Positions 5,433 through 33,737 of a DNA stretch of 64,000 bases are shown piece after piece. A program made the position numbers and the translations under genes. Source of the stretch: Patescibacteria group bacterium (GTDB taxonomy: Bacteria > Patescibacteriota > Patescibacteriia > 2-12-FULL-60-25); assembly GCA_031082005.1 (NCBI GenBank), contig JAVHLR010000001.1, positions 439,251 to 503,250 of the forward strand, given 5' to 3'. Position 1 is the stretch's first letter, and each line of letters opens with the position of its first letter. The notes beneath the pieces were generated by a model that was given only the letters and a program-made list of their open reading frames with translations, was not told the DNA's origin and made no database searches.

Positions 5433-5517
5433 ACTGTTGTGGATTTTGGGGTGTCAGCGGCGAATGTCGGCGCAGATGGCATTTGCCTTTGTTTTTCTAC
5501 GCTTGTACGCTAAATCA

Positions 5518-7596
5518 ATGCTCCGCTGGGACGATCCGATATCCTATATCCACAGTCTGTCTTCGTATGACAGGAAGATGTTGAAGTCCTTGGATGCGGC
5601 TGATATCGGCGAATTGCTCAATCTGATACCACGACGTTACGATGATTATTCGAACTTGGCGAAAATCGCTGACATTCCCCTGAACGAACCAGTCACCATC
5701 AAGGCGAAAATCGACGAGATCAAACAAGCCCCGACTTTTCGCCGGCGCTTTACCTTGATCCGCGCAAAAGTGTCTGACGCAAGCGGATCGATCGGCGTGA
5801 CTTGGTTCAACCAACCATGGCTCTTGAAACAGTTGAAAGCAGGGGATGAGATATTCATCTCCGGTGCCGTGACCATGCGTCCGCGCTTCGGCAAGGGCTT
5901 CACCTCACCGCTGTGGGAACCGGCGGACGCAGAGACAGTAGCGGCCGGGAACATCGCGCCAGTGTATCCGCTGACCGGCAATGTCAAGCAAAAGAATCTA
6001 CGGCGTATCATCAGGCAGGCTCTCTCGGAGTTAGAGCCTCCCGAAGATTGGCTCGATGAAAATATTCGGCGACAAACCGAGCTGCCTGACTTGGCGAGCG
6101 CTTACCGTCACATCCACGCACCGGAGTCCTTGGGACAAACTGAACAAGGGAGGCGCCGACTGGCCTTCGACGAGCTTCTGTCGTATCAGCTGGCGTTGCG
6201 TACGGCGCGGCAAGAAGCTGATGCGGCAGGCGCGCCTCAAGTCGCCTTTGATGAAAACTTCGCCAAGAAGTTCACAGCTTCTTTGCCTTTTGAATTGACT
6301 GTCGATCAAAAGAAAGCCGTCTGGTCTGCTGTGCAGGATATGCTGACGGCGCGTCCGATGCGTCGCCTGCTCCAAGGAGATGTCGGCAGCGGCAAGACGG
6401 TGGTTGCCGCGATGCTGGCCGCTTTAGTGCATCGCTCCGGCCAGTCGGCTGCCATCATGGCGCCGACCGATATCCTGGCCAAACAACACGCCCAAACCTT
6501 ACGCCGTCTGCTTGCGCCGCACCACATCCCGCTGGTCCTGTTGACCTCTTCTGCGCGGCTCGCATATCAGAACGGAGACGAGCGAAAACTGACTCCAAGT
6601 GAAGCGCGCGAAGTCTTGGCGCAGGGGCGCACGGTCGCCGTCGGTACGCATGCACTGCTTGTCCGCGGAAGCGCGCCTCCTGATTTGGCTCTTGCCGTGA
6701 TCGACGAGCAGCACCGTTTCGGTGTGGCGCAACGTGAGACTCTGGTGGTTGACGCCCGGGAGGACGGTAAAGTCCCGCATCTGTTGTCCATGACGGCGAC
6801 GCCGATACCGCGCTCGTTGACTCTGACTATGTTGGGTGATCTGGATGTCTCGATCATCCGGACAAAACCCATCGGTCGGGCAAAAATCACGACCAAAGTC
6901 TGTGTCGGCGATACCGGCAGGCAGTACGCTTACGACCTGATCCAGGAACAGGTTTCTCTCGGTCGGCAAGCTTTCATCGTATGTCCGCTCATCGATCAAT
7001 CGGACAAGCTCGGAGTGAAAAGCGTCGAAGAAGAGGTCTTGAGGTTACGCAAAGGGCCGCTGAAGGACCTCAAGATAGGTATGGTGCACGGCCGTCTATC
7101 CAACGCGGAAAAAGACGAGGCGATGGGTGATTTCGCCGGCGGCGCAACGCACGTCTTGGTGGCGACCACGGTCGTCGAAGTCGGTGTCGATGTCCCGAAT
7201 GCGACGGTGATGCTGATCGAAGGTGCCGAACGTTTCGGCTTGGCTCAATTGCATCAATTGCGCGGGCGGGTGGGCCGATCGAGCCATGAATCTTTCTGCC
7301 TGCTGGCTGCGTCGGAAGACGCCGGTGTGGCGGATAGGTTGTTCGTCTTGGAACGAACAGACGACGGCTTCAAAGTCGCAGAAGAGGACTTAAAGATCCG
7401 CGGTGCCGGAAACATCCTCGGACTCCAACAAAGCGGCGCGCCGCTGTTCAAAGCCGCACGTCCGGATGATTTGGAGTTGATGGCGATGGCACGCGAGATT
7501 TCGCAAGAGATCGTCCGGACTGACCCTGATTTGCATCAACACCCAAAAATAAAACAGCGCATCGATGGGTTGCGCCAGACGAGCCATAGGGAATAG
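5518..7596 (+). CDS. recG: ATP-dependent DNA helicase RecG
   Basis: A 692-aa protein of normal RecG length when started at 5518 (MLRWDDPISYIHSL). The longer frame from 5437 adds 27 residues that overlap the repeat region and look non-native. The N-terminal wedge/OB domain (residues about 50-200) includes YDDYSNLAKI and GVTWFNQPWL. The helicase core has Walker A GDVGSGKT near 287, the DEQH box near 396, TATPIPRSL, and the TRG-type C-terminal motifs RVGRSSHESFCLL and GAGNILG.LQQSG. It remodels stalled forks and branched recombination intermediates. The gene is convergent with radA, with only 15 nt between. Confidence 0.96.
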   Translation: MLRWDDPISYIHSLSSYDRKMLKSLDAADIGELLNLIPRRYDDYSNLAKIADIPLNEPVTIKAKIDEIKQAPTFRRRFTLIRAKVSDASGSIGVTWFNQPWLLKQLKAGDEIFISGAVTMRPRFGKGFTSPLWEPADAETVAAGNIAPVYPLTGNVKQKNLRRIIRQALSELEPPEDWLDENIRRQTELPDLASAYRHIHAPESLGQTEQGRRRLAFDELLSYQLALRTARQEADAAGAPQVAFDENFAKKFTASLPFELTVDQKKAVWSAVQDMLTARPMRRLLQGDVGSGKTVVAAMLAALVHRSGQSAAIMAPTDILAKQHAQTLRRLLAPHHIPLVLLTSSARLAYQNGDERKLTPSEAREVLAQGRTVAVGTHALLVRGSAPPDLALAVIDEQHRFGVAQRETLVVDAREDGKVPHLLSMTATPIPRSLTLTMLGDLDVSIIRTKPIGRAKITTKVCVGDTGRQYAYDLIQEQVSLGRQAFIVCPLIDQSDKLGVKSVEEEVLRLRKGPLKDLKIGMVHGRLSNAEKDEAMGDFAGGATHVLVATTVVEVGVDVPNATVMLIEGAERFGLAQLHQLRGRVGRSSHESFCLLAASEDAGVADRLFVLERTDDGFKVAEEDLKIRGAGNILGLQQSGAPLFKAARPDDLELMAMAREISQEIVRTDPDLHQHPKIKQRIDGLRQTSHRE

Positions 7597-7611: not shown

Positions 7612-8961
7612 CTACAAGCCGCACGCCCTCAAAGCCTCTTCCAACGTCGCGGCCTCAACCGTTTTTATGCCGTCGACGGATTTTTTGATTTGCCCTTTGG
7701 GCAATATTGCGTGGTCAAACCCCATCCTCTTGAATTCCTTCAGTCTTAACTCCGGTAAGGCGACCGGTCTAAGCTCTCCGCCTAATCCGACTTCGCCGAA
7801 CAGACCCAGGCGCGGATTCAGCGGTACGTTTTTTGTAGCGCTGGCGATCGCGGCGACTAGCGCCAAATCAGCGCTCGGATCTCGTGCGTCCAGACCGCCC
7901 GCTGCATTCGCATAGACATCTTTTTCCAGAGCATTCACCCCGGCACGACGTGCCAAGACAGCCAAGAGCATCCCCAAACGACTGGTATCCACGCCAGTAG
8001 CTCTACGGACCGGTGTGCCATAACCCGCAGGATTCGTCAGGGCCTGGATCTCGAGCAACATCGGCCGCTGCCCTTGTATCAAGCACGTAACGGCAGACCC
8101 AGGGATACCGGACAACCTGTGCTGCAACAATTCCTGTGATGGATCAGTGACTGTCTCCAACCCCTTTTCCGTCATGGTCAATAATGCGCTCTGGTCCGTC
8201 GGACCGAAGCGGTGTTTGAGCGCACGCAGGATGCGATAGCGATGTTCGTGGTCGCCTTCGAGGAAAAGTACGCTGTCCACCAGGTGCTCCAGCACGCGCG
8301 GTCCGGCTACATCGCCATCCTTGGTCACTTGGCCGACCAGCATGAGCGGCGTGCCGCATTTCTTGGCTGCTTCCGTCAGTATCGCTGAACCTGCTTTGAC
8401 CTGCGTGACGCTCCCAGGTTCTCCGTTCATGTCGGGCGTGCGCAAGGTCTGCACCGAGTCCACGATGGTCAGATCAGGTTTTTCTTTTTCGATCGTCGCC
8501 GCGATCGTCGGAACATCTGTCAGGTCAAGAAAAAAAAGCGTAGCTGGAAGCTGGGGTGCGAGCCGAATCAAGCGGCGATGGATTTGGGCAGGTGATTCTT
8601 CTCCCGTTACGTAGATAATTTTTTTTCCGCTGGTCGCCAAGGCGATAGCAGCCTGCGCGAGAAGAGTGGATTTGCCGATGCCCGGCTCGCCGGCAAGGAG
8701 CGTGACTGAACCTTGCACGAGCCCTCCCAGCACTTCATCCAATGCGCTGACTCCGGTGAGCTCGCTTTTGGCCGATTGTGCGCTGTGTCCTTTGAATTGC
8801 TTGATCTCACCAGGTTTGCCTGCTGTCCTTGGGCTAGAGACTTCGGCTGTCTCCGTCGCTTCCTTGAGCGACCCCCAAGCTCCGCATTCAGAACAGCGCC
8901 CCGACCATTTCAGGGTCTGGGCGTCGCATTTTGAGCAGGTAAAGATGGTTTTTTGATTCAT
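7612..8961 (-). CDS. radA: DNA repair protein RadA (Sms)
   Basis: A 449-aa protein when started at 8961 (MNQKTIFTCSKC). The longer start at 8997 would overlap the upstream stop. An AGAAGG lies immediately before the ATG. Domains in order: a four-Cys zinc finger (Cys 9, 12, 23, 26), a RecA-like ATPase with Walker A GEPGIGKST and Walker B LTIVDS, the RadA-specific KHRFG motif (usually KNRFG), and a C-terminal Lon-protease-like domain without catalytic residues. RadA promotes branch migration in recombination. The start lies 5 nt after the stop of the upstream pilin-like gene, so the two are probably cotranscribed. Confidence 0.95.
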   Translation of the reverse strand: MNQKTIFTCSKCDAQTLKWSGRCSECGAWGSLKEATETAEVSSPRTAGKPGEIKQFKGHSAQSAKSELTGVSALDEVLGGLVQGSVTLLAGEPGIGKSTLLAQAAIALATSGKKIIYVTGEESPAQIHRRLIRLAPQLPATLFFLDLTDVPTIAATIEKEKPDLTIVDSVQTLRTPDMNGEPGSVTQVKAGSAILTEAAKKCGTPLMLVGQVTKDGDVAGPRVLEHLVDSVLFLEGDHEHRYRILRALKHRFGPTDQSALLTMTEKGLETVTDPSQELLQHRLSGIPGSAVTCLIQGQRPMLLEIQALTNPAGYGTPVRRATGVDTSRLGMLLAVLARRAGVNALEKDVYANAAGGLDARDPSADLALVAAIASATKNVPLNPRLGLFGEVGLGGELRPVALPELRLKEFKRMGFDHAILPKGQIKKSVDGIKTVEAATLEEALRACGL

Positions 8962-8966
8962 GCCTT

Positions 8967-10535
8967 CTATGGTTTCGGGAAAGTCAGCAGAGGGCACGGC
9001 TTTTTTGACTTTTTGGTGTCACAGCCTGCACCTTTTATGCCCAAACTCGATAAATATCCTATGCCACAACTCGCAGTACAGTTGATGAGGGGAACCAGCT
9101 TATCCTTATCTCCTTGCGCTTGGCTGTTGTGCAACTTTCTATCATCATTCATTTTCTCACAAGCCTCGCGGTCGTTGCCCCAATCGCCCCTACAGATTGT
9201 GAACCCGTCTGATTTCAAGGTCATGATTGGATTTTTTGGGTTACATGACCGTGTCATGGCCGCGCGTGCTGCAGATTGGGCGCTGGCTGATCCTGCATAG
9301 CCCGCCCACGCCCTATCAACGTCGCCAGGATCACCAGCCCCGGCTTCTTTAAGGATGACAAGTGACGTCCAGATGCCGGCGTATGGCTCATTCAGCTGCT
9401 GTGCGGTGAAACAAATCCCCCCGAATGATTTTGACGGGATGTCTTTGTTACACGATTTAGAAAATAATGTTGTTTGGCCTGGTCCGATACCGTGACTGAA
9501 ACGCCAGTCCAACCCAAGATCCGTTTTTGACGGATCCGGCACATCGTCGTTACGCGGTGCGCTAGCCTTACAGTTCTTGTAGTTTTGGATGCTCGCCTGT
9601 AGTTCCTCGCCGGTCGAACATTCGCCTTTTCCGCAAGTCTTGGTACATTTCGGAAACTTCACGTCCTTGTATGTCACGCCGCTCTCCAAGTATGCCCGAC
9701 CAGCACTTACCCAGTAATGGACCAGACTGCGATCCGGGGGATTGGTCCCCAAGAACCTATCTAATTGGCCTACTGCGTAAACGTATTCATCATGACCGAT
9801 GATGCCCGGTAACGCTAGACCGCCAGTCTCATAGTTCATGGCTACGATCGCATAACATGGATTCAGTCCAAGACGTTTCGAGATGATTACCGCACACTCG
9901 ACCATGGATTCGAGTGTCGGGATACCCACGCTATTCATTTTGAATTTACATTCCGAAGGATCATATCCGTAGCTTGACGAACCGGTCGGTGTTCCGGCTG
10001 ATTGCGTAATTTCTTTCCATTGAGCAGGGGACAACACGTCGAATTTTTCTGGCTGTACGTATTGGATCTCGATGGGCTTCAAGCTCTTGGAGAAGTTCGG
10101 TATCACCATGTTCAATAGCGTGTATGAGCCCATGACCAGCCCCAATCCAAAAAGTGCGTCCTTGATCTTTTCCTTGCCCTTCTGCACGTCTCCGCTTGTG
10201 GTTCCTATGATATAGAGAAACCCACCATAGACCAGCATGATTGCCGTAGCGATGAGGACGATCCCGATGAAATATTTAATTAGTGCGGTGATGTATTGGG
10301 CGAGGAAAGGGATGGCGATCTTTTCGTTCTGGGTGACTTGAATATCGCTTGAGAACGTCAAACCCGGTATCGGAACATTCAGTTTTGGGACTTCTGCCTG
10401 AAAGACTTGAGCTTCGTTCCCTTCGCCATTAGTGCTTGTGGTATCGGCCGCCACTACCGAGGCGGTCGCAAGAAATATTGAGGACAAAACAAAAATCGCC
10501 AAGAAGATGTTACTCGCTATGCGGCGTCCTACCAT
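8967..10535 (-). CDS. Pilin-like two-helix protein with a lysozyme/transglycosylase-like domain
   Basis: A 522-aa protein. It has a signal peptide (residues 1-30), then LNVPIPGLTFSSDI near residue 52, then two transmembrane helices at about 80-110 and 125-145 separated by KGKEKIKDALFG. This is the layout of T4SS/VirB2-type pilin domains. Residues about 195-450 form a Cys-rich extracellular domain with SMVECAVIISKRLGL, AMNYETGGLALPG and GIGPGQTTLF. The E in NYETGG and the later G-Q pattern fit the lysozyme-like SLT fold, although the usual ES is ET. It is one of three proteins in the window sharing the VPIPG motif and helix pair. It probably cuts peptidoglycan at the cell surface; the substrate is inferred. 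Confidence 0.7.
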   Translation of the reverse strand: MVGRRIASNIFLAIFVLSSIFLATASVVAADTTSTNGEGNEAQVFQAEVPKLNVPIPGLTFSSDIQVTQNEKIAIPFLAQYITALIKYFIGIVLIATAIMLVYGGFLYIIGTTSGDVQKGKEKIKDALFGLGLVMGSYTLLNMVIPNFSKSLKPIEIQYVQPEKFDVLSPAQWKEITQSAGTPTGSSSYGYDPSECKFKMNSVGIPTLESMVECAVIISKRLGLNPCYAIVAMNYETGGLALPGIIGHDEYVYAVGQLDRFLGTNPPDRSLVHYWVSAGRAYLESGVTYKDVKFPKCTKTCGKGECSTGEELQASIQNYKNCKASAPRNDDVPDPSKTDLGLDWRFSHGIGPGQTTLFSKSCNKDIPSKSFGGICFTAQQLNEPYAGIWTSLVILKEAGAGDPGDVDRAWAGYAGSASAQSAARAAMTRSCNPKNPIMTLKSDGFTICRGDWGNDREACEKMNDDRKLHNSQAQGDKDKLVPLINCTASCGIGYLSSLGIKGAGCDTKKSKKPCPLLTFPKP

Positions 10536-10545
10536 AATCGGACTT

Positions 10546-10551
10546 ATTATA
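10546..10551 (-). promoter_or_regulatory. -10 box of a near-leaderless gene
   Basis: TATAAT on the minus strand ends 10 nt before the ATG at 10535, with no SD site between. Confidence 0.5.
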
Positions 10552-10612
10552 TGCAGTGGTGGTTATTTTGGCTATCTTGTGCAATGTTGCTATTATGGCA
10601 TCGCATGGCGCT

Positions 10613-12070
10613 ATGTCATCCCGCTTCTTCAGGCTGAAATCGTTAGTTTCACTTATCGTATTGGGTCTACCGCTATTTTTCGGCTTCGCCGTGGAAGCTC
10701 GCGCTGCTGATGATTTCTTCGCTCCGAAACTCTACGTCCCGATACCCGGATTTTCTTTCAACGATTATAAGATAACCAAGACCAGCCGGCAGCTAAGCAT
10801 CCCGTATCTCGGGGCGTATATCAGCGGTTGGTATAGGTTCATCCTGGCGATCGGGCTGATCGCTACGGCAATCATGATAACGTATGGCGGTTTCCTGTAT
10901 ATCGCCGGTGCGGAAGCAGGGACTGTTGCCAAGGGTAAAGAAAAGATCAAGGATGCTCTGATCGGTCTGGTTTTCTTGTTGAGCGCCCATACTCTGCTGA
11001 CCATGGTCAACCCGAACGCATCGACGCTAAAGCCGGTCACTGTCGGTTACATCGATCCTGATTACTACCAATTTGCGGTCGCGGGGGATACTGACCCAAA
11101 TGACCAAGTGGATCTGAAGGAGTTCTACAGCCGTGGAAATAGCGCGGCCGTTCCCGCTCCGCTGCCCGATCCTGGTGCATCGCTAGCCCAAGGAGGTACT
11201 CCTGCGAGCTCCGGAGTCCCTAGGGACGGCGTGAACCGTGGGCAAAACCAAGGCTGCGTTCAGTCTCCTTTCTATAAGTTGCCGGCCCCAGCGTGTTCTG
11301 GGCGAGACGCGTGTTATCAGAAATACTGTGTCCAAAAATCTACCGATTATCCTGCTGGCTTGGTAAAAGACAGCGACCTGAAAAAATTCGATGATTTATA
11401 TCCTGGAATAAAAGACATTAAAACGCTCCGTCTTTGCAGTACCCAGCTTAGGGAATTTAATGATGGGATGATCAGCACGACGGGTTTGTTCTTCAACTGC
11501 ATGCATCCGGCTGGGATGGGTTTGATTCCGGAAGTCCACGACGCCTTGGTTAAGGCGGGTCAGATCGCAAAATCCAAGGGATATTATCTGAATGTATTCG
11601 ATGCAACACGAACCATGCAGACCATGGTTAGTGCATTTTGCCAACGGGCCGGAGAAGCCATCGCGAACGGGGACAAGGGCCAGGGCGGGTTGGCATTGCC
11701 CGGAGCTTCTCCTCACCAGATCGGAATCGCGGTTGACCTGGCCTTGGCACGCCAAAACGACAAGTGGACCAAAGGTGGCAAACCAAAGCAGATAACGGGC
11801 GGACCTCCGGTGTGTAACGCTAAAAGCGGCAACAACCAAGTCGATAATGCTGTGACTGTCGATGGCTTTAAAGGGTTAGAGAACCAAAAAATCATGGACG
11901 ACATCATGGCCGAAGCGGGGTTTAGGCGCATGTGCGGTGAGACATGGCACTTCGATCACTATAAAGGCGTCTATAACAACGATTGCTATGTGTGTGCCTT
12001 CCCTCCAAATCCTTCACGGAGCGAAGCTTCAAACCCTGCCTGCGCACCAAAGTTTTGGCCTAAGAAATAA
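10613..12070 (+). CDS. Pilin-like two-helix protein with an M15 D,D-carboxypeptidase domain
   Basis: A 485-aa protein. The start at 10613 (MSSRFFRLKSL) gives a clean signal peptide ending AEARA-like; a longer frame begins at 10556. LYVPIPGFSFNDYK is followed by two transmembrane helices around KGKEKIKDALIG, matching the two neighbouring paralogues. The C-terminal domain (about 230-485) has the zinc ligands of VanY-type M15 peptidases: H-Q-I-G-I-A-V-D and E-T-W-H-F-D-H. It also has several Cys pairs. It should trim D-Ala from peptidoglycan stem peptides on the outer face of the membrane. It is divergent from the transglycosylase-like paralogue. Confidence 0.82.
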   Translation: MSSRFFRLKSLVSLIVLGLPLFFGFAVEARAADDFFAPKLYVPIPGFSFNDYKITKTSRQLSIPYLGAYISGWYRFILAIGLIATAIMITYGGFLYIAGAEAGTVAKGKEKIKDALIGLVFLLSAHTLLTMVNPNASTLKPVTVGYIDPDYYQFAVAGDTDPNDQVDLKEFYSRGNSAAVPAPLPDPGASLAQGGTPASSGVPRDGVNRGQNQGCVQSPFYKLPAPACSGRDACYQKYCVQKSTDYPAGLVKDSDLKKFDDLYPGIKDIKTLRLCSTQLREFNDGMISTTGLFFNCMHPAGMGLIPEVHDALVKAGQIAKSKGYYLNVFDATRTMQTMVSAFCQRAGEAIANGDKGQGGLALPGASPHQIGIAVDLALARQNDKWTKGGKPKQITGGPPVCNAKSGNNQVDNAVTVDGFKGLENQKIMDDIMAEAGFRRMCGETWHFDHYKGVYNNDCYVCAFPPNPSRSEASNPACAPKFWPKK

Positions 12071-12097
12071 TCGTTCTGAATCAAGAGATATTGCTAC

Positions 12098-12120
12098 AAC
12101 CCCGGGTTCATCCCGGGGTT
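12098..12120. terminator. Hairpin between convergent genes
   Basis: AACCCCGGG / CCCGGGGTT with loop TTCAT, between the convergent M15 and FGE-like genes. It is symmetrical enough to act in both directions. Confidence 0.6.
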
Positions 12121-12169
12121 TGTGTTATTTCGTTGTTCTGTGCCCTTCCGTCGACTCGAACGCCCTCTA

Positions 12170-14059
12170 TCAAGGCTTCAGATACATGCAGCAACGGAAA
12201 CCATTCTCAAATGCTCTCCAGCCTCCGACCGGGTGAACGCTGCCCCAGGTGACGCTGCAGGAAGGTTCGGCAGAAGTGTTGGCTAAGTGGGCGATAGGGG
12301 AATAGTAGAATCCGATCCAAGTGTAGGGCTTGGCTCCTCCGATAGCCTGACCTTTAGCGACTCGCTGTTGCAGCGTCATCGTTGATCCGGTTTTGCTGAC
12401 GACGATCTCCTGGATATTCGCTGTCATGTCGTACACGCCTTCTGCAGTCACGCAACTCGTGCGCGTGCCGCTTGGTTCCGCTTTATTCAGCCTAGTCACC
12501 TCCGTGCGCATCGCTTCGAGTTGTTTAAGCTTGTTCTCCATCGATTTAGCCTTCGAGGCATCGCCTTGTTCCTTCAGTTTTTCTACCTCTTCAATCACAT
12601 TCTTCTTGAAGTCAGGATTCAACGTGCTGAATTTCGGGTCGATAGTATAGAGAGAATAAATCTTCGAGAAGTTCGGTCCGCCGGTTGATGCCACTGTGTC
12701 GTAATTGCACAGACCGGGCTCTTTGCCTCCTGCTTTGACCTTCCAAGTGTCCTTTACCCCCGCGCTCACCCAAAGCCCTGGAATGAATTTTGGCCCGTAG
12801 CCGTAAGTGTTTTCTCCCTTCGGTCCTTTGCAGGCGCGGACCCACTCCTGTATGTTGCACAGTCTTTTGCCTCTTTCCGCGCAATACCAGTCGGCTTCGA
12901 ATTCAGATACCCCGTTCAGCGGAACGGCGCCCTGCTTGTTCGGCGCTTCGTACCTGTCGATACAGAACGATTGGACGTTTTCTTTTGTTTTTGCTTCGTA
13001 ATCAGCGCTATACGGGATCGCGACCATGTCTTCGGGGCATTGACCCTGGGCAATCAAGTTGCCTCTTTCGTCAGTCACTAGGCCACCTGGAACGACGGTT
13101 CCTTGCGGCTGTTCTCCGGGAGCGGAGGGTGCGCCTATGACGTCAGGTTTCGTCGCTACTGTCGAAGTCACGACTTGTCCGCCAGGAGTCTCGATGATGT
13201 CCACAGTCTCGATCTGTTCGCTGGGTTGGGCTTGAGATGATTTGGCGACGCGTTCGAATTCAGCTTCCGGCGAACAGATGGCGTCTTGCTTATCGACGAC
13301 TTTGACCGACAGGACTTTTAATGTCGTTGTTGCTGGATTAGCGAACTTCAGGATGGTCATGACGGAGAAGACGAGGATCAAGCCGATGATCGCTCCGGCG
13401 ATTTTTTCTTTGCCCGAGCTTATGCTTTTTGATGTCGCGCCTAGTATGTACAGGAAGCCGCCGTACACGATGACGATGGAAGCTGCGATGAGTGACAGGG
13501 CGATGACGTAGTTATACATCGCACTGATGTATTGGCTCAAAAAAGGCAGGTTTATCTTGCCGTCGATCGGCATTATTCCGGTAGAAAAAGTCAGCCCGGG
13601 TATCGGTACGCCGAGTTTCGGAGTTATGGTCGGCTCGGCTTGAGGAGGCGTCTCGGGGCAGGTTATTTCACTCTTCATGCCGGGTACCTTGTCGATCCCG
13701 CAACATTTATTCCTAAGGGGAGTATTGCCGACGCAGGCTCCGATCTCTTTGCCTGCGATAGATTCGATGCAGACACCTGCGCAGATGCCGCCGTTCCTTT
13801 TGCACAATGCCTCATCCCATTTGGTCGGATCCTTGATCGTGTCCTGATTAGGTACGCAGCAGGCGCTATTGATCGCCAGGCCTATGCACAGACCGGAGAA
13901 GCCAAAGCCTTGCTCGCAGCTCTCGCTGATCCTGTTGCAGCTTCCGCCTAAATCTTTACACTCCTGCTCGCTTATGGCAAAAACCGGGCTGATGATCAAA
14001 AATATCCCCGCATAAGTGGCCAGGACAGCTGCCGAAACCAGTTGCCGGATATTCCGCAT
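12170..14059 (-). CDS. Cys-rich pilin-like protein with a formylglycine-enzyme (FGE-sulfatase) domain
   Basis: A 629-aa protein. It has a signal peptide (1-28), then two Cys-rich repeats of about 45 residues each (ECKDLGG.C...C...C...CC and LCKRNGG.C..C...C...CC). LGVPIPGLTFSTGI and two transmembrane helices around SGKEKIAGAIIG follow. The C-terminal domain (about 335-629) follows the FGE/SUMF pattern: CIDRYEAPN, GVSEFEADWYCAERGKRLC, EWVRACKGPKG, GVYDMTANIQEIV and GFRCC. In other bacteria this fold makes formylglycine, hydroxylates or binds ligands (sugar/lipid), so the activity here is open. The gene is last in an operon with a DsbA-like gene 1 nt upstream, which suits its many cysteines. 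Confidence 0.8.
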   Translation of the reverse strand: MRNIRQLVSAAVLATYAGIFLIISPVFAISEQECKDLGGSCNRISESCEQGFGFSGLCIGLAINSACCVPNQDTIKDPTKWDEALCKRNGGICAGVCIESIAGKEIGACVGNTPLRNKCCGIDKVPGMKSEITCPETPPQAEPTITPKLGVPIPGLTFSTGIMPIDGKINLPFLSQYISAMYNYVIALSLIAASIVIVYGGFLYILGATSKSISSGKEKIAGAIIGLILVFSVMTILKFANPATTTLKVLSVKVVDKQDAICSPEAEFERVAKSSQAQPSEQIETVDIIETPGGQVVTSTVATKPDVIGAPSAPGEQPQGTVVPGGLVTDERGNLIAQGQCPEDMVAIPYSADYEAKTKENVQSFCIDRYEAPNKQGAVPLNGVSEFEADWYCAERGKRLCNIQEWVRACKGPKGENTYGYGPKFIPGLWVSAGVKDTWKVKAGGKEPGLCNYDTVASTGGPNFSKIYSLYTIDPKFSTLNPDFKKNVIEEVEKLKEQGDASKAKSMENKLKQLEAMRTEVTRLNKAEPSGTRTSCVTAEGVYDMTANIQEIVVSKTGSTMTLQQRVAKGQAIGGAKPYTWIGFYYSPIAHLANTSAEPSCSVTWGSVHPVGGWRAFENGFRCCMYLKP

Positions 14060-14060
14060 A

Positions 14061-14750
14061 TCAAGATCCCATGAACTCCTTTATCTTCTTGTCCAAATCG
14101 TTCGGGGGAAGGTAGCTTGCGTAGGCATCTGTGCCGATGAAGAACACCGGCGTCGTAGTGACACCATCAGAACGCGCCAAGTCCGCATTCGTCTTTATCT
14201 CATCGACGAACTTCTGTTCGCGCATGCAGGTGGCGATCTGTGTCCTGTCCATTTTCAGTGAAGCCGTCAGGTAATCGAAGGATAGGCTCGTGACGCGCTG
14301 TTCCGCCATGAGGGCGTCATGGACTTCCCAGAATTTGCCTTGGATGCCGGCACAGAAGGCGTAAAGTGCGGCCTCCGAATCATATTTCGCTTTTTCATCA
14401 GGCAAATCGCGCCACACATAACGGACTTTGCCGCCGTATTTAGGCACGACGTCGGTGATCGATTTCTCGATCTTTTTGCATTCTTCGCAAGAGTAGCTCC
14501 CGAAGAGGATGACGGTGCCCGCGGCTTCCGGGCCACCGAAGCGCATGTGATCTGTCAACTGGACGGCCGGCGGCCGCATGCTGGACAGGCTTATCGTCTG
14601 CGGAATAGCCAGGTTCATGATGTCGAGAGGAGGTGATCCGGCCATGAACTGCGTCGTACTGGATTTGTACGCACTATATAAAAGCCATCCCGTCATTGCC
14701 GAGAAGGCCAGGACAAAGCAGATGACGATGAAGATCCTTTGCTTGTTCAT
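14061..14750 (-). CDS. DsbA-like thiol-disulfide oxidoreductase, membrane-anchored
   Basis: A 229-aa protein with one N-terminal helix (about 5-27) and a DsbA/thioredoxin_4 domain. The active site is C-E-E-C in SYSCEECKKIEKS, and the cis-Pro loop is TTTPVFFIG. It continues with the helical insert FWEVHDALMAEQ. It should introduce or shuffle disulfides outside the membrane. It lies 4 nt after the beta-propeller gene and 1 nt before the Cys-rich FGE-like protein, its likely client. Confidence 0.9.
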   Translation of the reverse strand: MNKQRIFIVICFVLAFSAMTGWLLYSAYKSSTTQFMAGSPPLDIMNLAIPQTISLSSMRPPAVQLTDHMRFGGPEAAGTVILFGSYSCEECKKIEKSITDVVPKYGGKVRYVWRDLPDEKAKYDSEAALYAFCAGIQGKFWEVHDALMAEQRVTSLSFDYLTASLKMDRTQIATCMREQKFVDEIKTNADLARSDGVTTTPVFFIGTDAYASYLPPNDLDKKIKEFMGS

Positions 14751-14754
14751 GTCT

Positions 14755-15993
14755 TTATTTGAGATCGTAGCTGAACAGTTTTCCCGTCGCTACGTCGGAA
14801 AAAATCATCTGACCGCCGTCATCCGTGATTACCGGGTTACCGATGGCATGGGTCAAGTCAGGCAGCATCAACTTCGTCGCGACGCCTGTATTGACGCTGA
14901 TGCGGTACACGTCGTCCGGCAATGTCTCGAATTCTTTACGCGATAAGGCCGCGTTGAACGGAAGATCCTGCGGCACCGCGCAATAGACCGTTTGGTCGTC
15001 GGACCAGGCACACTTGTCCGCCCACGTGTTCAGTTGGATGGCGCGTCGGTTCGCCCCCAAGGTGTTCGGCTCGCCAGAAATCACCCACAGAGTCGGCTTG
15101 TTGTTGCTCTCGTTGCCGAAAACGCTGTACATGATCTGCTTGCCGGTGGGGGACCAGTTGGGCAGGAATCCACGTCCCACCGTATAGATGGATTTGAAGT
15201 TTTCATGGTTCTGTCCCACGAAAATCACTTCTTGCTGGTTTTCTGCCTGGACTTGCCCGCGATCGGTGTAAGCGATGATCTGTCCGTGTGGAGCCCACGA
15301 AAGGAAGGCCGAGTCAGCATTGTTCCCTAGCGGTTCAAGGGCGCGCGCCTCTGTACCATCCGGGTTAGCCGTAATCAGAAAGCGGTTGTCCGCATCGACT
15401 CCCATGCTTTTCGATTCGAGTTTGCTGTCATTCGGGGCGAATTCGAACTCCTCCCAGTGCTTGGGTAAGACGACCTGTTTTTTCTCTTCGAAATTGTAGT
15501 AATAGTTGGTGCCATCAGGGAATTCCACCACCATTTCGTCTTTGGTATTCCCCCAATTCACGTTCTCTACATTGAAATATTGCTTGTCGCCCAGAAGCGT
15601 CACGCTTCCGTCGGCTCCGACCTTGTAGAATCTCCCGTCTTCCGGATTGTAGAATCTCGCGCCCGAACCGTCGGGCCTTGTCGTGACAGATTGCGTGACG
15701 CCATCATGCAGGAGACGGAGTTTAGTCGAGGCTTCCGGCAGGGCGCCGATGGCGCCTTCTCCCCCAGCCGCCCCCGGAGTCGTCGGTAGTTCACCTGGTT
15801 GCGTGGTCGTTGCTCCTGGGGTCGGTCCGCCCGTGCCTGCTGACGGCAAACCGCCTGTCAGTTCTGTCGGAGTCGTCGGCGTCGTCGGTGCTGTTCCAAG
15901 CCTGAAGAACAGATAGTACATGCCGTAACCCATGCCGATGGAGAAGATGATGAAGAAGACCGCGAAAAGTATTTTTTTGTTCCTGTCCGTCAT
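14755..15993 (-). CDS. Membrane-anchored TolB-like beta-propeller protein
   Basis: A 412-aa protein. One helix (8-30) is followed by a Thr/Pro/Gly-rich linker (30-80), then a propeller-like domain with WD/TolB-type repeats (NTKDEMVVEFPDGTNYYYNF, FLSWAPHGQIIAYTDRG, FLPNWSPTGKQIMYSVFGN, KCAWSDDQTVYCAVP). It is likely a scaffold of the surface assembly encoded around it. A -10 box lies 10 nt before the start. Confidence 0.75.
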   Translation of the reverse strand: MTDRNKKILFAVFFIIFSIGMGYGMYYLFFRLGTAPTTPTTPTELTGGLPSAGTGGPTPGATTTQPGELPTTPGAAGGEGAIGALPEASTKLRLLHDGVTQSVTTRPDGSGARFYNPEDGRFYKVGADGSVTLLGDKQYFNVENVNWGNTKDEMVVEFPDGTNYYYNFEEKKQVVLPKHWEEFEFAPNDSKLESKSMGVDADNRFLITANPDGTEARALEPLGNNADSAFLSWAPHGQIIAYTDRGQVQAENQQEVIFVGQNHENFKSIYTVGRGFLPNWSPTGKQIMYSVFGNESNNKPTLWVISGEPNTLGANRRAIQLNTWADKCAWSDDQTVYCAVPQDLPFNAALSRKEFETLPDDVYRISVNTGVATKLMLPDLTHAIGNPVITDDGGQMIFSDVATGKLFSYDLK

Positions 15994-16046: not shown

Positions 16047-18683
16047 TCAGAACAAACTGCTGATGGAGCTGATTATCTTATCCAAGCCGACCACCGAACC
16101 GACTGCACCGATACCTGCGATTATCACGATGAGGATTATCGTGCAGATGCAGAAAGGCGGCATGAACAGGAAATTTACGCACATCAGGCAGTCGAGGAAA
16201 ATCGTCAGGACATCTTCGATGAAAGATTGCTCGACGAAACCGCGCAGGCAGCCTTCGGTTTTTTCCGCCTCGGAAGCGAACCCGGCATTTCCCATCACTT
16301 CCGCGCCCGGTGACTTATCCACGCCGAAACCCTGGGCGACAGTGCCGAATGACTTGAAGATGTACTTGAGCACCAGCTGGACATTCAGCTGCAAGATGAG
16401 GAGCAATAAAGTGATGCCGACAGATTCAGGCGCTGTTCCTGCTTCTGCTGATTCGATACCGACACGCGCTGTCGCCCCTGTTGTTTTTGCGGCGACCTTC
16501 ATACCGGCTTTTTCGAGTTGTTTGACGACCTCGTCCTGGACCTTTTGTTTAGCCTTATCCATCACCTTGTCCTTTGCCATCTGCATCGCCCTGTCCACGG
16601 CGCCTTGCGCGCCTGAAGCCGGCTCTTCCCCAGGTTCGGCTTCTTCGTCCTCCTCGTCTCCAAGCCCGCCGAGATCGACGTCGTAGGATTCTTCTTCACC
16701 AGGCATGGCCTCGAGGCCTCCGCCCACGGCCGCACCAGACATAAATGACTGTGATGCCGCTTGCATCCTGCGCGCCTGGGCTTTTGCTCGCTGAAGCTCC
16801 ATGGCATCCGCCACCATCATGCCTCCGCCTGCCAAATCTTCCTCTTCTTCTTCCGCTCCTCCGAACATCGGCGATCCGGCGTGCATGACCTGACCTTCAG
16901 CAGTCGATCGAGAGGGGAGTTCGATGACTGAAGCACGCGGCTCATCCCCAAGGCCGAGGCTCTGATCGGTTATCGGTGTGTCGCCGCTCAAAGCTGCTCG
17001 CGACGATGGCGCGCCTGCCAGCCCCGCCTGCCGCGTCGGCTCGATGTTGGGCATGCGCAAAGGCTGTCGTTTTATTGCGACCCCACTCGGTAGCTTCGGT
17101 GCTTCACCTGTCGCTTCCGGCGCTTCTCCTCCTCCGGTGGCCAAGCGGTTCCGTTCTTCCTGCAAAGCCTGCTTGGCCGCTTCCATGCCCTTGCCGATCT
17201 CGCCCAAGGCTGCGGCAGCGCCGGATGCGGCGGGTTGGGAAGCGGGTGCAGATACGGCTCCACCGGCTGCAGGCGCGCCAATCGCTTGATTCAAGGCCGG
17301 AAGTGCAGGTGCTACTCCACGCAACGCCTCCGGACTTGCGTCTTTTTCTATGTTCCTGACTTGAGGTAATGCATTGAAATTGTTGAGTTGGGTGCTTGCT
17401 GCTCCGACCTGCTGTGTCAAGTTTTTATATTCAGCGGTTTTCTTTTGCGCCGCCGGCATCGATTTGATGTTGTTTTGCAGCTGGTTCAATTGGTTGCTTG
17501 CGGATTTGATCTCGGAATTGAACTGTTTGGGGTTGAAATTACGGTTCGTGCCCTTGATGTAGCCTTCGAGTTGGCTGACTTGGTTCTGCACCGGAGTGGC
17601 GATGCTGGCGTAAATCGCAGCAGCTTGAGCCGGCGTAGCGAAAATCATGGCCTCCGCTCCCGCAGAAATGCCACGGCCAGCCGCAGCGCGCTCGACTTTG
17701 CTTTGCGCCGAAACGCTGATTTGTCCGCCGATCGGTTGGGCAGCTCTCTGGGTCTGCGCCTCGGCTTTCACTTCGACCGAGCCGGTCGCCGGAGGCGTCT
17801 CTTTTTTTTCGGCTCGCGCCGTAACCACGACCTCGCCCACGTCTGACGAAACTGCCGTTGCTTCGGTCTTTGCTGTCACTTCCCCCGACGTTGAGGCGCG
17901 TCTTTCGGCCTTACCTGTGGTCGCGGTCTGTGTAGATACCTGGGGAGCTTGTTGTCGCGAAGGGACCGCCGCAGCCACTGCGCCGGCCGTCGCTCCCATC
18001 ACCGGCACGGCAACCGCTGCGGCAGTGACAGCTGCTGCAGAAGCCGCAACTGGCGTCGGTGCGGCAACAGACTTGACTGACGCAGCTCCCGCGCGCGCTG
18101 TCTGCTCCCGTGAGACGGCGGATTCGGGTTCTGTTTCCGTTTCTTCTTCCTGAACTTCTGTTGTTTTTTCTTTCTCTTCTTCTTCGGCTTCTTCCGTTTC
18201 TTGCTCTGTCGGTTTTATCCCGACTGTCTTGTCTTCGATGGTCTTGGGCGCCTGTGCGGCTTTTGCCTCTGCAGCTTTTTTCGCCTTCTCCGCTTTGGCT
18301 TTTTTTTCTTTGTCGGCTATACCTGCGGCTTCCAGGCGTTCTGCCTCCTCCTGATCCTGAACGCGTTGTTCCAGTTTCTTGTTGCGTGCGTTCTTCCATT
18401 CGGTATATTTTTTTAGCGCAAAAAAAACAGGTCCCTGCTTGGTTTCGCTCTTGCTTATCAAAGCGCCGAAAATGTCGTTCAGCTCGCCGAACTCCAAATT
18501 TTCACGATTGATGTTCGTTTGGCTTTGGACTTCGCGAGCCAGGGTTTGAAGTTCGCTCTTAAGCTTAGCCGGATCTCCGCGTCGGCCGCCGCGTGCCCCG
18601 TATTGTTCGATGATGCTATCCGCTTGCCGGACGAATTTTTCTGCGTCCGTATGATAGCGGTTTAGATCGGTCACGCTTGGCAT
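16047..18683 (-). CDS. Large Ala/Glu-rich coiled-coil protein with a hydrophobic C-terminus
   Basis: An 878-aa protein started at 18683 (MPSVTDLNRYHTDAEKF); the ORF extends to 18731 but a TATAAT box sits inside that extension. The N-terminal 115 residues look folded and helical. The middle is low-complexity (Lys/Glu/Ala, then Ala/Val/Pro/Thr rich), with a helical segment AAIYASIATPVQNQVSQLEG near residue 370. An acidic DVDLGGLGDEEDEE patch follows. The last 120 residues contain three to four hydrophobic helices with a Cys cluster (LDCLMCVNFLFMPPFCIC). The gene is first in the cluster with the propeller, DsbA and FGE-like genes. A role as a membrane platform for a pilus-like or secretion assembly is inference only. 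Confidence 0.7.
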   Translation of the reverse strand: MPSVTDLNRYHTDAEKFVRQADSIIEQYGARGGRRGDPAKLKSELQTLAREVQSQTNINRENLEFGELNDIFGALISKSETKQGPVFFALKKYTEWKNARNKKLEQRVQDQEEAERLEAAGIADKEKKAKAEKAKKAAEAKAAQAPKTIEDKTVGIKPTEQETEEAEEEEKEKTTEVQEEETETEPESAVSREQTARAGAASVKSVAAPTPVAASAAAVTAAAVAVPVMGATAGAVAAAVPSRQQAPQVSTQTATTGKAERRASTSGEVTAKTEATAVSSDVGEVVVTARAEKKETPPATGSVEVKAEAQTQRAAQPIGGQISVSAQSKVERAAAGRGISAGAEAMIFATPAQAAAIYASIATPVQNQVSQLEGYIKGTNRNFNPKQFNSEIKSASNQLNQLQNNIKSMPAAQKKTAEYKNLTQQVGAASTQLNNFNALPQVRNIEKDASPEALRGVAPALPALNQAIGAPAAGGAVSAPASQPAASGAAAALGEIGKGMEAAKQALQEERNRLATGGGEAPEATGEAPKLPSGVAIKRQPLRMPNIEPTRQAGLAGAPSSRAALSGDTPITDQSLGLGDEPRASVIELPSRSTAEGQVMHAGSPMFGGAEEEEEDLAGGGMMVADAMELQRAKAQARRMQAASQSFMSGAAVGGGLEAMPGEEESYDVDLGGLGDEEDEEAEPGEEPASGAQGAVDRAMQMAKDKVMDKAKQKVQDEVVKQLEKAGMKVAAKTTGATARVGIESAEAGTAPESVGITLLLLILQLNVQLVLKYIFKSFGTVAQGFGVDKSPGAEVMGNAGFASEAEKTEGCLRGFVEQSFIEDVLTIFLDCLMCVNFLFMPPFCICTIILIVIIAGIGAVGSVVGLDKIISSISSLF

Positions 18684-18689
18684 GACATT

Positions 18690-18695
18690 ATTATA
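18690..18695 (-). promoter_or_regulatory. -10 box of a leaderless gene
   Basis: TATAAT on the minus strand ends only 6 nt before the ATG at 18683. Transcription would start at or within a base or two of the start codon. Confidence 0.55.
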
Positions 18696-18827
18696 CTGGA
18701 ATTGCGCTTTTTTTGCATGACTTATCCGCACCCGTTCTCACAGGTAGTCGCAATCCCTGCCTGTGCGCTTCTCGACCTCGCCTTACTTCTTGAATTGCCT
18801 GTATTGTGTCATACTGATGACAAAAAT

Positions 18828-22081: not shown

Positions 22082-24541
22082 TCAGGTGACCTTGGGGCCG
22101 TTCTTCGTCATTTTTATCACGATTTTATTCTTGCTGCGGTTTTCAGTTATCACCTTGCTGATGAGCGAAGCTAGCTCACGGTCGATGACGTGCCGGATGG
22201 CTCGCGCACCTTCTTCTTGGGGCATAGGTCGATCCAATAGCCATTCGACCACGTCATCGCCCATCGAACAGGCAATCTGTTGTGCTTCGGTGACGCGGGC
22301 GAGGACGCTGTCGAGTTCGCGCTTCAGTATGCGCTTGAGGTCTTCGCGCCCCAATGGCTTGAATACGGCAATCGCATCCAAACGGTTCAACAACTCCGGC
22401 CGCAACATGGCACGGAGTTCGTCGCGGACCGTTTTTTCGAAATCATCGCCGTCCGCCGAAAAACCCAAGCCTTTTTGCGTCAGTTTATTCGTCCCTAGAT
22501 TAGTCGTGAGTACGATGTAGGCGTGACGGAACGTCACTGGCCTGCCCGTCGAATCCGTCAGCTTCCCGTCCTCCAAGAGCTGCAATAGGACGTTCTGGAC
22601 ATCAGGATGGGCTTTCTCGAATTCATCGAACAGTACGACCGAATGCGGACGCTTCTTGATCGAGTCGGTCAGTTTGTTCGCGTCCCGATAACCTACATAG
22701 CCGGCCGGCGCACCCATGAGTTTGGACAATGAGTGGCCTTCCGAAAACTCCGTCATGTCGATCTTGATCAACGCGTCTTCGCGTCCGAAAATCAGCTTGG
22801 CGAGTTGTCGTGCGCTTTCGGTTTTTCCTGTGCCCGATGGTCCGGCCAAAAGCAACGCTGATTTCGGGCGGGCAGGGGAATTGAGGCCAAGCCGTGAGCG
22901 CAGTATGACCTGTGCGATGTCCTGAAGCGCTTTATCCTGACCCACGATGAACTCCTTGAGTTTAGTCTCCAGCAATGCCAGTTTCTCTCTTTCGCTTGCC
23001 ATGATGGTAGAGAGCGGTACGCCAGTCGCCGTAGCTACCACGCGCGCCACGTCTTCTGGCCCTACGGTGGGGACATCTTTTTCCCTTTGTTTTTCATACC
23101 CGAGGTGCAGGTTATGCAGGTCGGCACGCAAGCGCTCGGCTTGCGTAGCGTTCTTTTCGGCTTCCTCCAGGTTGCCCTTTGCCACGGCTTCAGCCTTGTT
23201 CTCTTGCATTGCGTCAATGGCGACTTCGAGTGAGCGCAGGCGTTCCATGTGTTCGCTCGACTTACGGCGTGAAACGACATGCGCCGCAGCCTCATCCATC
23301 AGGTCGATAGCTTTGTCGGGGAAAAGGCGATCCGTCATGTAGCGTTCAGATAGTCTGACCGCTTCACGCAATGCCTCGACGGAATATCTGACGTTATGGT
23401 AGTTGGCGTACTGTTTCTGCAGGCCCTGAAGGATGCCGAGCGTCTGTTCGGCGTCCGGCTCCTCAACGGCGATAGGTTGGAAGCGTCTTTCCAGTGCAGC
23501 ATCAGGTTCGAAGTGCTTTTTGTATTCAGCCCACGTGGTCGCTCCGATGCAGCGGATCTCTCCGCGCGCTAACGCGGGCTTGAGCATGTTGGCTGCATCA
23601 AGGGATCCGGTGGTCGAACCGGCACCAACGATATTATGGATTTCATCGATGAAAAGTATGACGTCCTTATCGTTCTTGGCTTCGTCCAGAATCTGTTTCA
23701 GCCTGGCTTCGAACTCGCCGCGGTACATCGTCCCTGCGACTGTTAACGCCAAATCAAGAGACAATAAGCGTTTACCATGCAGAGCGTCGGGTATATCTCC
23801 AAGTGCCAGTCGTTGTGCCAACCCCTCGACGATGGCTGTTTTACCGACGCCGGGATCGCCGAGTAGTACGGGGTTGTTCTTGGTTCGTCGGCAAAGTATT
23901 TGGATGACTCTATCCAGTTCACGATCGCGGCCTACGAGCGGATCGAGCTTTTCGGTATTCTCATGCTGCGTCAGGTCGCGTGTGAATGAGTCTAAAGCCG
24001 AGGATTTGGATTGACGCGGCGCATCCGGTCTCGGAAAATCCTGGCGCATGTCGGGCGTCTCATGTTCGTCCTGCGGCAGCAGTTCCGGAAAACGGGAGGA
24101 TGACCTCAATACGTCGTTGACGCGGTCTTTGAGTGCACGGACATCCGCTCCCGAAGCTTCGAGGAACGACATGACTTCCGTGAAATTGCTTTCGAGCAGG
24201 GCGTGCAGCAGATGCTCGGTGCCGACGTATTTATGTTCGTTCAGGTGGGCCGTCAGGACGCATTTTTCGAGTAGTCGTTTGACCGCTGGAGACAGGTCTG
24301 GCGTCGCGATATTTGATTTTTTCGACGGCTTGCCGCAGAAGATGTTTTTGGCTTTTTCCGTCTTGATGTTGGACTTGTTGAGTACTTCGGCGGCGATTGA
24401 ACCCTTCTCCAGCAGCAACCCTACCAGCACGTCGCCCGGTTCAAGCTGGTCGCGCCCGTTGGTTATCGCAAAAGCCAGCGCTTTTTGCAGCGATTCCTTG
24501 AGATGCGTGGTGAAGCGGTCGAAGAGTTCGGGGAGAAGCAT
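22082..24541 (-). CDS. clpC: ClpC-type AAA+ unfoldase
   Basis: An 819-aa protein with an N-terminal Clp-N double repeat (1-150), first AAA+ domain with Walker A GDPGVGKT (228-235) and Walker B VILFIDEIHN, a short coiled-coil middle domain (about 430-490), second AAA+ with Walker A GPSGTGKT near 560, and a C-terminal small domain. The short middle domain favours ClpC over ClpB. The GLGFS tripeptide loop in the second AAA+ domain could contact ClpP. It unfolds proteins for degradation. It is the last gene of the lemA-htpX-clpC run, starting 14 nt after htpX. Confidence 0.92.
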   Translation of the reverse strand: MLLPELFDRFTTHLKESLQKALAFAITNGRDQLEPGDVLVGLLLEKGSIAAEVLNKSNIKTEKAKNIFCGKPSKKSNIATPDLSPAVKRLLEKCVLTAHLNEHKYVGTEHLLHALLESNFTEVMSFLEASGADVRALKDRVNDVLRSSSRFPELLPQDEHETPDMRQDFPRPDAPRQSKSSALDSFTRDLTQHENTEKLDPLVGRDRELDRVIQILCRRTKNNPVLLGDPGVGKTAIVEGLAQRLALGDIPDALHGKRLLSLDLALTVAGTMYRGEFEARLKQILDEAKNDKDVILFIDEIHNIVGAGSTTGSLDAANMLKPALARGEIRCIGATTWAEYKKHFEPDAALERRFQPIAVEEPDAEQTLGILQGLQKQYANYHNVRYSVEALREAVRLSERYMTDRLFPDKAIDLMDEAAAHVVSRRKSSEHMERLRSLEVAIDAMQENKAEAVAKGNLEEAEKNATQAERLRADLHNLHLGYEKQREKDVPTVGPEDVARVVATATGVPLSTIMASEREKLALLETKLKEFIVGQDKALQDIAQVILRSRLGLNSPARPKSALLLAGPSGTGKTESARQLAKLIFGREDALIKIDMTEFSEGHSLSKLMGAPAGYVGYRDANKLTDSIKKRPHSVVLFDEFEKAHPDVQNVLLQLLEDGKLTDSTGRPVTFRHAYIVLTTNLGTNKLTQKGLGFSADGDDFEKTVRDELRAMLRPELLNRLDAIAVFKPLGREDLKRILKRELDSVLARVTEAQQIACSMGDDVVEWLLDRPMPQEEGARAIRHVIDRELASLISKVITENRSKNKIVIKMTKNGPKVT

Positions 24542-32714: not shown

Positions 32715-33737
32715 ATGAAAGAGATGGTCCAAGCAGTTGACGGACACAAGAATGTGAAACCTCTACAGGCGGACAACCGTCGCGTGAAGTACATCAAGGC
32801 CAAGTGCCTGGCAACGTATGGCCTCGAACAGCCGCTCCATTGGCTCAAGGGCCAGAAGGTTTCAGAAGTCCCTGACTTCGATACGTGGAAGCGACTGCTC
32901 GATAAGTTCACTGCGTGTATGGAAGAGACCCCCTGGGCGCACTTCCTGCACACCTACGGTGCTTTCCCGCCCGAAGAGTGGCTTACCGGCTGGCGCGGTG
33001 TCGGCCATCTGCTGGCTACGCTCCTGGATCCGACCAAGGTCGAGATTTTCGAAGCCGAGGTTGGGGAGCCGACCTACTACGTCGTTCCGCGCTCCTATCC
33101 CGACACGCTGTTCCTGCTGCGGAGTGACGGCTACTTCGATCGGATCGCCCTAGGCAAGCCAACGCTCGAGCCGAAATACGTCGGTCCGCTCCTGGAAGCC
33201 GCGGTTCTCCGAGCCTGGAACACTGAGGGCGCGCCGTTGCGGCTCGAAGCGCGGAAGCTCGTCTGCGATGCTTTCTACGACTCGATCCAGCGCCAGGTCG
33301 AGTCCTGGGAGGTCGAGTACAACCGTTCGACCGTCGCCTGCACCGTGTTCCAGGACCAGTTTCATTGGGGACCCGGCGTCCTGCGGACCGACAAGGTCGT
33401 AATCTGGCAGGTCGTCCAGGGGAAGATCGTGGCCGAGCTTTTCAGCGGCGACAAGTTTACGCCCGAATCGTTTCACGACGACGCGGTCCAACGGATTCCG
33501 ATGCTAAACCACACCGCTGACTCGCTCCTCTATGGCCACGAAAGGAGATTCCTCTTTCGCCGTCGATCCCTTGAGTTCATGTTGCAGAAATTCCATCGCG
33601 ACGTGACCACTCTGTGCGTGGTTCCGGTGAGCGCCGACGGCGAGATACCGAGGGAATTCATCCTCGTCGCGTCTCGTTCGTCTCTAAAGCACCCCAACCC
33701 CACCGACGGTGAACCTCTCCTTTGTCCCAGCATCTGA
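32715..33737 (+). CDS. Orphan protein A of a paired family
   Basis: A 340-aa soluble protein with a good SD (AAAGGGG, 6-7 nt before ATG). I do not recognise it. It shows distant similarity in layout to the next protein: a basic N-terminus, DTWKRLL, GVGHLLATLLDPTKVEIF (the neighbour has YLIASLLDRSDVEMY), LLEAAVLRAW (LEATLFSAW), a basic helix RFLFRRRSLE (WPFKRRILEHD), and a final hydrophobic strand. It has no signal peptide. It is expressed from its own promoter and followed by its own hairpin. Its GC and SD strength differ from the neighbouring housekeeping genes, which suggests recent acquisition. Confidence 0.7.
   Translation: MKEMVQAVDGHKNVKPLQADNRRVKYIKAKCLATYGLEQPLHWLKGQKVSEVPDFDTWKRLLDKFTACMEETPWAHFLHTYGAFPPEEWLTGWRGVGHLLATLLDPTKVEIFEAEVGEPTYYVVPRSYPDTLFLLRSDGYFDRIALGKPTLEPKYVGPLLEAAVLRAWNTEGAPLRLEARKLVCDAFYDSIQRQVESWEVEYNRSTVACTVFQDQFHWGPGVLRTDKVVIWQVVQGKIVAELFSGDKFTPESFHDDAVQRIPMLNHTADSLLYGHERRFLFRRRSLEFMLQKFHRDVTTLCVVPVSADGEIPREFILVASRSSLKHPNPTDGEPLLCPSI

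Follow-up and report, generated by a model that had tools for sequence, protein, structure and literature searches.

T4SS_pilin-type hairpins joined to interchangeable C-terminal domains, among them putative cell-wall hydrolases, in uncultured Patescibacteria

Background

What use does a cell have for a pilin that carries an enzyme? The question is raised by three adjacent genes at positions 8967 to 14059 of a 64,000-nucleotide stretch of contig JAVHLR010000001.1 (the whole stretch analysed, hereafter the window), which derives from a tiny uncultured bacterium related to Candidatus Uhrbacteria. An earlier note, made from the letters of the sequence, had proposed that pilin-like modules are joined here to three different C-terminal domains, at least two of them linked to the cell wall, and had interpreted the arrangement as a membrane-embedded display of wall enzymes. 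In the available text of a survey of type IV secretion systems (T4SS) in Patescibacteria, VirB2-like pilins are reported from 1,948 VirB4-bearing assemblies, together with 441 pilin arrays; VirB1 homologues are described there as few, most genomes with VirB2 lacking VirB1, and it was inferred that none is needed (PMC12102498). The accessible part of a second study shows that Southlakia epibionticum, so far the only strain put to the test, cannot do without the T4SS and its pilins (PMC10633639). No pilin-enzyme fusion turned up in either text or in keyword searches of the literature, with subscription papers and supplements outside their scope.

Results

Three adjacent fusion genes

The open reading frames (ORFs) of the three adjacent fusion proteins were verified as follows:

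8967..10535, minus strand: P0001, 522 aa; signal-like N-terminus, pilin hairpin, probable GH23-like C-terminal region
10556..12070, plus strand: P0002, 504 aa from GTG; signal-like N-terminus, pilin hairpin, M15-type peptidase domain
12170..14059, minus strand: P0003, 629 aa; Cys-rich N-terminal region, pilin hairpin, FGE-like C-terminal region

The overall observation of the earlier note, pilin-like modules followed by three differing C-terminal domains, is thereby confirmed. All three proteins have a hydrophobic signal-like N-terminus upstream of the module; for P0002 the ATG at 10613 is more likely to be the start than the GTG at 10556, and would give a normal signal peptide. The C-terminal regions contain 16 (P0001), 12 (P0002) and 11 (P0003) cysteines, and P0003 has 13 further cysteines N-terminal to its module. 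A PHROGs search with seven proteins gave zero matches. An annotation or assembly artefact was ruled out by the recurrence of P0001, which was matched in 56 of 57 related genomes. Candidatus Uhrbacteria account for most of the named relatives, the remainder being a few Magasanikbacteria and others.

The module is homologous to T4SS pilins

The modules occupy the following positions:

10044..10388, minus strand: T4SS_pilin module, P0001 residues 50-164 (PF18895)
10724..11062, plus strand: T4SS_pilin module, P0002 residues 57-169 (PF18895, E=1.9e-7, above the curated cut-off)
13283..13621, minus strand: T4SS_pilin module, P0003 residues 147-259 (PF18895)

Relative to the module of P0001, that of P0002 is 52% and that of P0003 49% identical. 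The shared VPIPG(L/F)(T/S)F motif noticed earlier is indeed common to all three, as P-K-L-x-V-P-I-P-G-[LF]-[TS]-F, and is followed by two long helices and G-K-E-K-I; the supposed role of K-G-K-E-K-I as a linker was not borne out, as in the models this stretch forms the first part of helix 2 instead of connecting module and enzyme. In AlphaFold models of P0001 and P0003 the hairpin consists of two helices of 31-35 residues separated by a 3-residue turn (residues 77-110 and 114-144 in P0001; 172-206 and 210-240 in P0003), and it alone is confident, the mean confidence of the two predictions outside it being low (57 and 51). The net charge of the hairpin turn, used as a topology test, was positive in half of the modules. 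A search of PDB sequences with the module profile returned zero matches.

In a six-frame search of the 1.31-Mb genome, PF18895 scored above its curated cut-off of 26.6 bits in P0001 (28.5 bits), P0002 (35.1 bits) and P0003 (27.7 bits); with whole proteins as targets, P0002 again exceeded the cut-off and the other two fell slightly below it (23.8 bits for P0001, 22.6 bits for P0003). The same scan recovered 11 places in the entire genome, all three modules included, and only one of 14 control genomes was positive, so PF18895 is no generic detector of helix pairs. A profile of 62 modules matched 27 small pilins, drawn from arrays of the source genome, Saccharibacteria, Gracilibacteria and others, with 99% probability (E=5e-18), a partly circular test inasmuch as the pilins had been collected with the module profile, the Pfam result being the independent one; seven other membrane proteins or families reached at most 0.7%. 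On the strength of the PF18895 scans and the profile-profile controls, chance resemblance between two-helix segments was ruled out. Of the earlier designation "VirB2-like pilin", then, the homology to T4SS_pilin is real, and the match to TrbC/VirB2 itself (PF04956) is sub-threshold (E=0.86, in P0003). Nor are these proteins stand-alone small subunits, since they measure 504-629 aa and have large C-terminal domains.

Identity of the C-terminal domains

Three features of the C-terminal regions are referred to below:

11063..12067, plus strand: P0002 C-terminal region with M15 peptidase domain (SxHxxGxAxD and ExWH motifs; match to 1r44)
9828..9830, minus strand: E236 of P0001, invariant in its family and aligned with the SLT Glu; candidate catalytic Glu
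12173..13282, minus strand: P0003 C-terminal region with FGE-like domain PF03781 (E=8e-8, above cut-off)

The M15 assignment is the firmest. The profile of the P0002 family matched the D-Ala-D-Ala dipeptidase 1r44 with E=6.9e-11; the His, Asp, Glu and His of the M15 motif (HxxxxxxD...ExxH) are invariant across 10 sequences, and the residues of SxHxxGxAxD and ExWH are invariant or nearly so in the family. The sequence of P0002 by itself lies below the Pfam M15 cut-off. The family profile and the motif residues bear out the M15 end claimed earlier, and at the level of sequence P0002 is confirmed as a predicted M15 D,D-peptidase with intact motifs.

The transglycosylase-like end proposed for P0001 gained profile support and no support from fold or PF01464. 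No significant match to its C-terminus was found in Pfam or in PDB sequences, and PF01464 (SLT) matched neither P0001 nor any other place in this genome. In profile-profile comparison the P0001 family reached 52% probability with SLT; combined with an intermediate family, c6, it reached 89%, c6 by itself reaching 94%. The alignment is limited to the region of the helix and the Glu, and families besides c2 and c6 scored at most 2.7%. Because the structure model is of low confidence and the fold search with it came back empty, we claim no fold for this region, which is probably, not provenly, GH23/lysozyme-like.

The FGE-like end of P0003 was upheld by a PF03781 match above the Pfam cut-off (32.7 bits against 23.3), confined to the N-terminal half of the domain. 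A true FGE carries an active-site Cys pair near the C-terminal end. None was seen in an alignment of 7 sequences, with no FGE reference among them. An FGE enzyme function is accordingly not supported by the sequence, and a binding role is possible. The claim that at least two of the three ends are wall-linked thus stands securely for P0002 and probably for P0001; P0003 is without a demonstrated wall link.

Interchangeable heads across the class

A survey of VPIPG-helix-helix proteins in Patescibacteria, which the earlier note had suggested, revealed a fusion pattern that extends throughout the class and in which the C-terminal domains, or heads, are interchangeable. (The scan of genome contigs for modules used a 12-row module alignment.) Grouping of the C-terminal regions gave ten families that each have at least two class members. 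Besides the GH23-like, M15 and FGE-like heads, they comprise SLT proper (E=7.7e-8, above cut-off; an SLT match adjoins the module in G012, G021, G041 and G056), NlpC/P60-like heads (Asp-Cys invariant and His nearly invariant, one member matching PF00877 with E=0.026), CHAP-like heads assigned from motifs alone and a glucosaminidase (best E=3.6e-5, below cut-off) or C39-like family. One GDSL lipase head (E=2e-15) also occurs in the class, and a C39 peptidase fusion (E=2.6e-12) was found beyond it. In a sample of 153 genomes from the phylum, module matches better than 1e-24 were confined to the class; in other classes mostly the hairpin alone matched, at times in ORFs of 900-1700 aa.

Several further architectures were observed. 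In the source genome, an N-terminal T4SS_pilin domain precedes TIG and Ig-like repeats in a protein of 3577 aa (G000:C3:1013886-1024619, L187), whose 655-aa neighbour combines T4SS_pilin with a single Ig-like domain (G000:C3:1024541-1026505, L013). A 1012-aa T4SS_pilin protein of another class ends in PKD domains (L137:7360-10398). Proteins of relatives have an SGNH/GDSL-type domain N-terminal to the pilin hairpin, with a DsbA-like gene adjoining (L116:5185-7080, L119:5155-7104), and T4SS_pilin proteins with 200-residue C-terminal extensions occur in archaeal bins labelled Halobacteria and ANME-1 (L130:3080-3955, L132:5902-6915).

Modules are more alike within a locus than between genomes

In a tree of 72 modules, paralogues from the same locus with unrelated C-termini were often well-supported sisters. 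The nearest sequence came from the same locus for 29 of 60 modules (mean 1.7 and maximum 7 after shuffling), and identity was 51% within a locus, 41% between modules with the same C-terminal type in other genomes and 40% otherwise. A single old fusion for each enzyme type finds no support in this tree. The pattern points to homogenisation of the hairpins inside each genome or else to a swap of heads following duplication. Both fit hairpins that are obliged to match one another, but duplication alone would also yield such similarity. Head types are also exchanged between close relatives, which leans weakly toward a changing outside target.

Linkage to VirB4

The earlier note had called for a search for VirB4 and VirB6 nearby. 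The genome encodes one VirB4 (PF19044, E=6.6e-27), about 36 kb from the fusions and beyond the window, in an operon that includes PrgI (PF12666, E=2.7e-8) and a short protein, matched weakly by TraC_F_IV and interpreted as the N-terminal part of VirB4, and that is headed by a 965-aa protein with hydrophobic stretches. The VirB6 search (PF04610) of this genome gave no match. Pilin similarity (PF18895) and a secretion ATPase (VirB4, with PrgI), on whose absence the note had proposed to abandon its reading, are both present.

In 20 genomes from many families, on contigs of up to 1.5 Mb, VirB4 and a module share a contig; the distance is at most 25 kb in 18 of them, 36 kb in the source genome (G000) and 86 kb in G003. 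A pilin fusion directly adjoins VirB4 in genomes with other gene orders (L141, L146, L155, L156 and L126), and at L147 the DsbA-like and WD40-like genes, a fusion and VirB4 stand all together. Elsewhere in the source genome lies an array of six small T4SS_pilin genes (G000:C3:1229316-1232116, L014), one of which resembles P0003 in having an N-terminal region rich in cysteine.

A conserved locus with a possible pairing of glycan and peptide cutters

Gene context was taken from the neighbourhoods of loci rather than from entire genomes. The fusion genes, one to four in number, recur in the order ClpC, (P0006), WD40-like, DsbA-like, fusions, RadA, RecG, represented in the window by:

5437..7596, plus strand: RecG, conserved flank of the fusion array
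7612..8997, minus strand: RadA, conserved flank of the fusion array
14061..14750, minus strand: P0004, DsbA-like thioredoxin-fold protein (PF13462, E=2.2e-19), conserved neighbour
14755..15993, minus strand: P0005, membrane-anchored WD40-like propeller protein (PF07676), conserved neighbour
16047..18731, minus strand: P0006, 894 aa, low-complexity/coiled with hydrophobic C-terminus, neighbour in some relatives
22082..24541, minus strand: ClpC, conserved flank on the opposite side

Among 39 loci, a DsbA-like gene lies within 1 kb in 30, a WD40-like gene within 3 kb in 30 and RadA within 1.5 kb in 27, several of the misses being contig ends. The triad of the window, a GH23/SLT-like, an M15 or CHAP-like and an FGE-like fusion, is found also at L053, L054, L056, L060 and L069. 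In the 23 loci with at least two assigned fusions, a glycan cutter was paired with a peptide cutter in 18, against 11.6 under label shuffling (P=0.002), a pairing that we treat as suggestive only, in view of the relatedness of the genomes and the inferred status of several labels.

Two other parts of the window drew attention by eye: the adjacent same-strand ORFs at 32715-33737 and 33859-34902 (340 and 347 aa), which look alike and may be tandem paralogues, and an 802-aa ORF at 45458-47866 that has long coiled regions besides a GGDEF-like stretch.

Discussion

We consider it somewhat probable that T4SS-linked, pilin-derived membrane hairpins hold wall hydrolases on the outside of the cell and make openings in the peptidoglycan at the T4SS or close to it, in the role of VirB1 but on a VirB2-like chassis. 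The fusion proteins would be exported by Sec, the helices of the T4SS_pilin hairpin would stay embedded in the membrane, both ends lying outside, and the wall would be faced by the C-terminal domain, which in the window is GH23-like, M15 or FGE-like; the DsbA-like neighbour probably makes disulfides in the Cys-rich ends, and glycan-cutting and peptide-cutting heads may jointly open peptidoglycan at or near the T4SS. A membrane display is plausible because of the signal-like N-terminus, the two hydrophobic helices, the Cys-rich ends, the DsbA-like neighbour and the interchangeable hydrolases, and the interpretation offered in the earlier note is in that sense partly supported: pilin homology and VirB4 speak for it, and the anatomy fits.

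Several observations weigh against this wall-opening role. The T4SS operon of the source lies 36 kb off, its plain pilin array is encoded elsewhere, and VirB6 was not matched by PF04610. At 504-629 aa the fusions far exceed pilin size, the fold of the P0001 end is unconfirmed, and the comparison with small pilins is, as said, partly circular. The linkage and pairing statistics take no account of relatedness, and several enzyme labels come from motifs only. One rival is a plain two-helix anchor co-opted from a pilin, with enzymes that work on the cell's own wall during growth, division or turnover, no role in the T4SS, and a nearness to VirB4 that reflects old gene order. The fusions sit tightest with RadA, RecG and ClpC, none of them a T4SS gene; VirB4 is 36 kb away in G000 and 86 kb in G003; and MurD in the window suggests that the cell builds its own wall. 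We nevertheless think this rather unlikely, since fusions stand directly beside VirB4 in lineages with other gene orders and the homogenisation or re-use of modules within a locus exceeds what a passive anchor would need.

The homology of the hairpin to array pilins and the similarity of modules within a locus could instead mean that fusions and plain pilins co-assemble as an extracellular T4SS filament, its cutting and binding heads directed against the wall of a different bacterium. That head types change quickly among close relatives would be expected for a changing outside target, and a cultivated relative grows epibiotically with essential T4SS pilins, according to the accessible part of PMC10633639. 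Such a filament seems quite improbable to us: bulky heads of 200-500 aa on every subunit would be hard to pack, there is no evidence of polymerisation, and the source encodes its own plain pilins elsewhere. A long shot, in our estimation, is a T4SS pilus, or the base of one, of mixed composition: some of its pilin subunits would have interchangeable wall-cutting heads, a glycan cutter together with a peptide cutter, making it an enzymatic pilus that breaches the wall of another bacterium. That the C-terminal domains chiefly bind, as surface adhesins derived from enzyme folds, is highly improbable; the lack of a Cys pair in the FGE-like domain of P0003 and the PKD or Ig-like repeats on some pilin fusions elsewhere would agree with it, but neither the M15 motif residues nor the GH23-like Glu vary, and Asp-Cys and nearly always His are retained in the NlpC-like family.

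If wall opening at the T4SS is what these proteins do, pilin-fused wall hydrolases may be the wall-cutting component that earlier work did not find in the T4SS of Patescibacteria, and searches for small pilins or stand-alone VirB1 may overlook such fusions. They offer a concrete, testable gene set for wall opening, and a natural pilin chassis with exchangeable enzyme heads.

Comparison with known systems, as far as the available parts of the sources describe them, points to both likeness and difference. The T4SS pilin arrays of Patescibacteria (PMC12102498; PMC10633639) are alike in PF18895, in phylum, in the presence of VirB4 and PrgI and in the clustering of pilin genes; their pilins are small plain subunits, whereas the hairpins described here have wall enzymes attached and are encoded in a RadA/RecG/DsbA-like locus. 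The P0002 end resembles M15 dipeptidases and carboxypeptidases of the VanX/VanY type (1r44) in profile and motifs and differs from them by its pilin hairpin and extra cysteines, and that of P0003 resembles FGE/sulfatase-modifying factor (PF03781) over the N-terminal half, the Cys pair not being seen. VirB1, TraG of pIP501 and PrgK (as cited in PMC12102498) are likewise T4SS-linked wall hydrolases that combine glycan and peptide cutting; they are without the pilin hairpin, and P0001 is without a PF01464 match. In those proteins the two activities reside in one polypeptide, whereas here they appear to be divided among neighbouring fusion genes.

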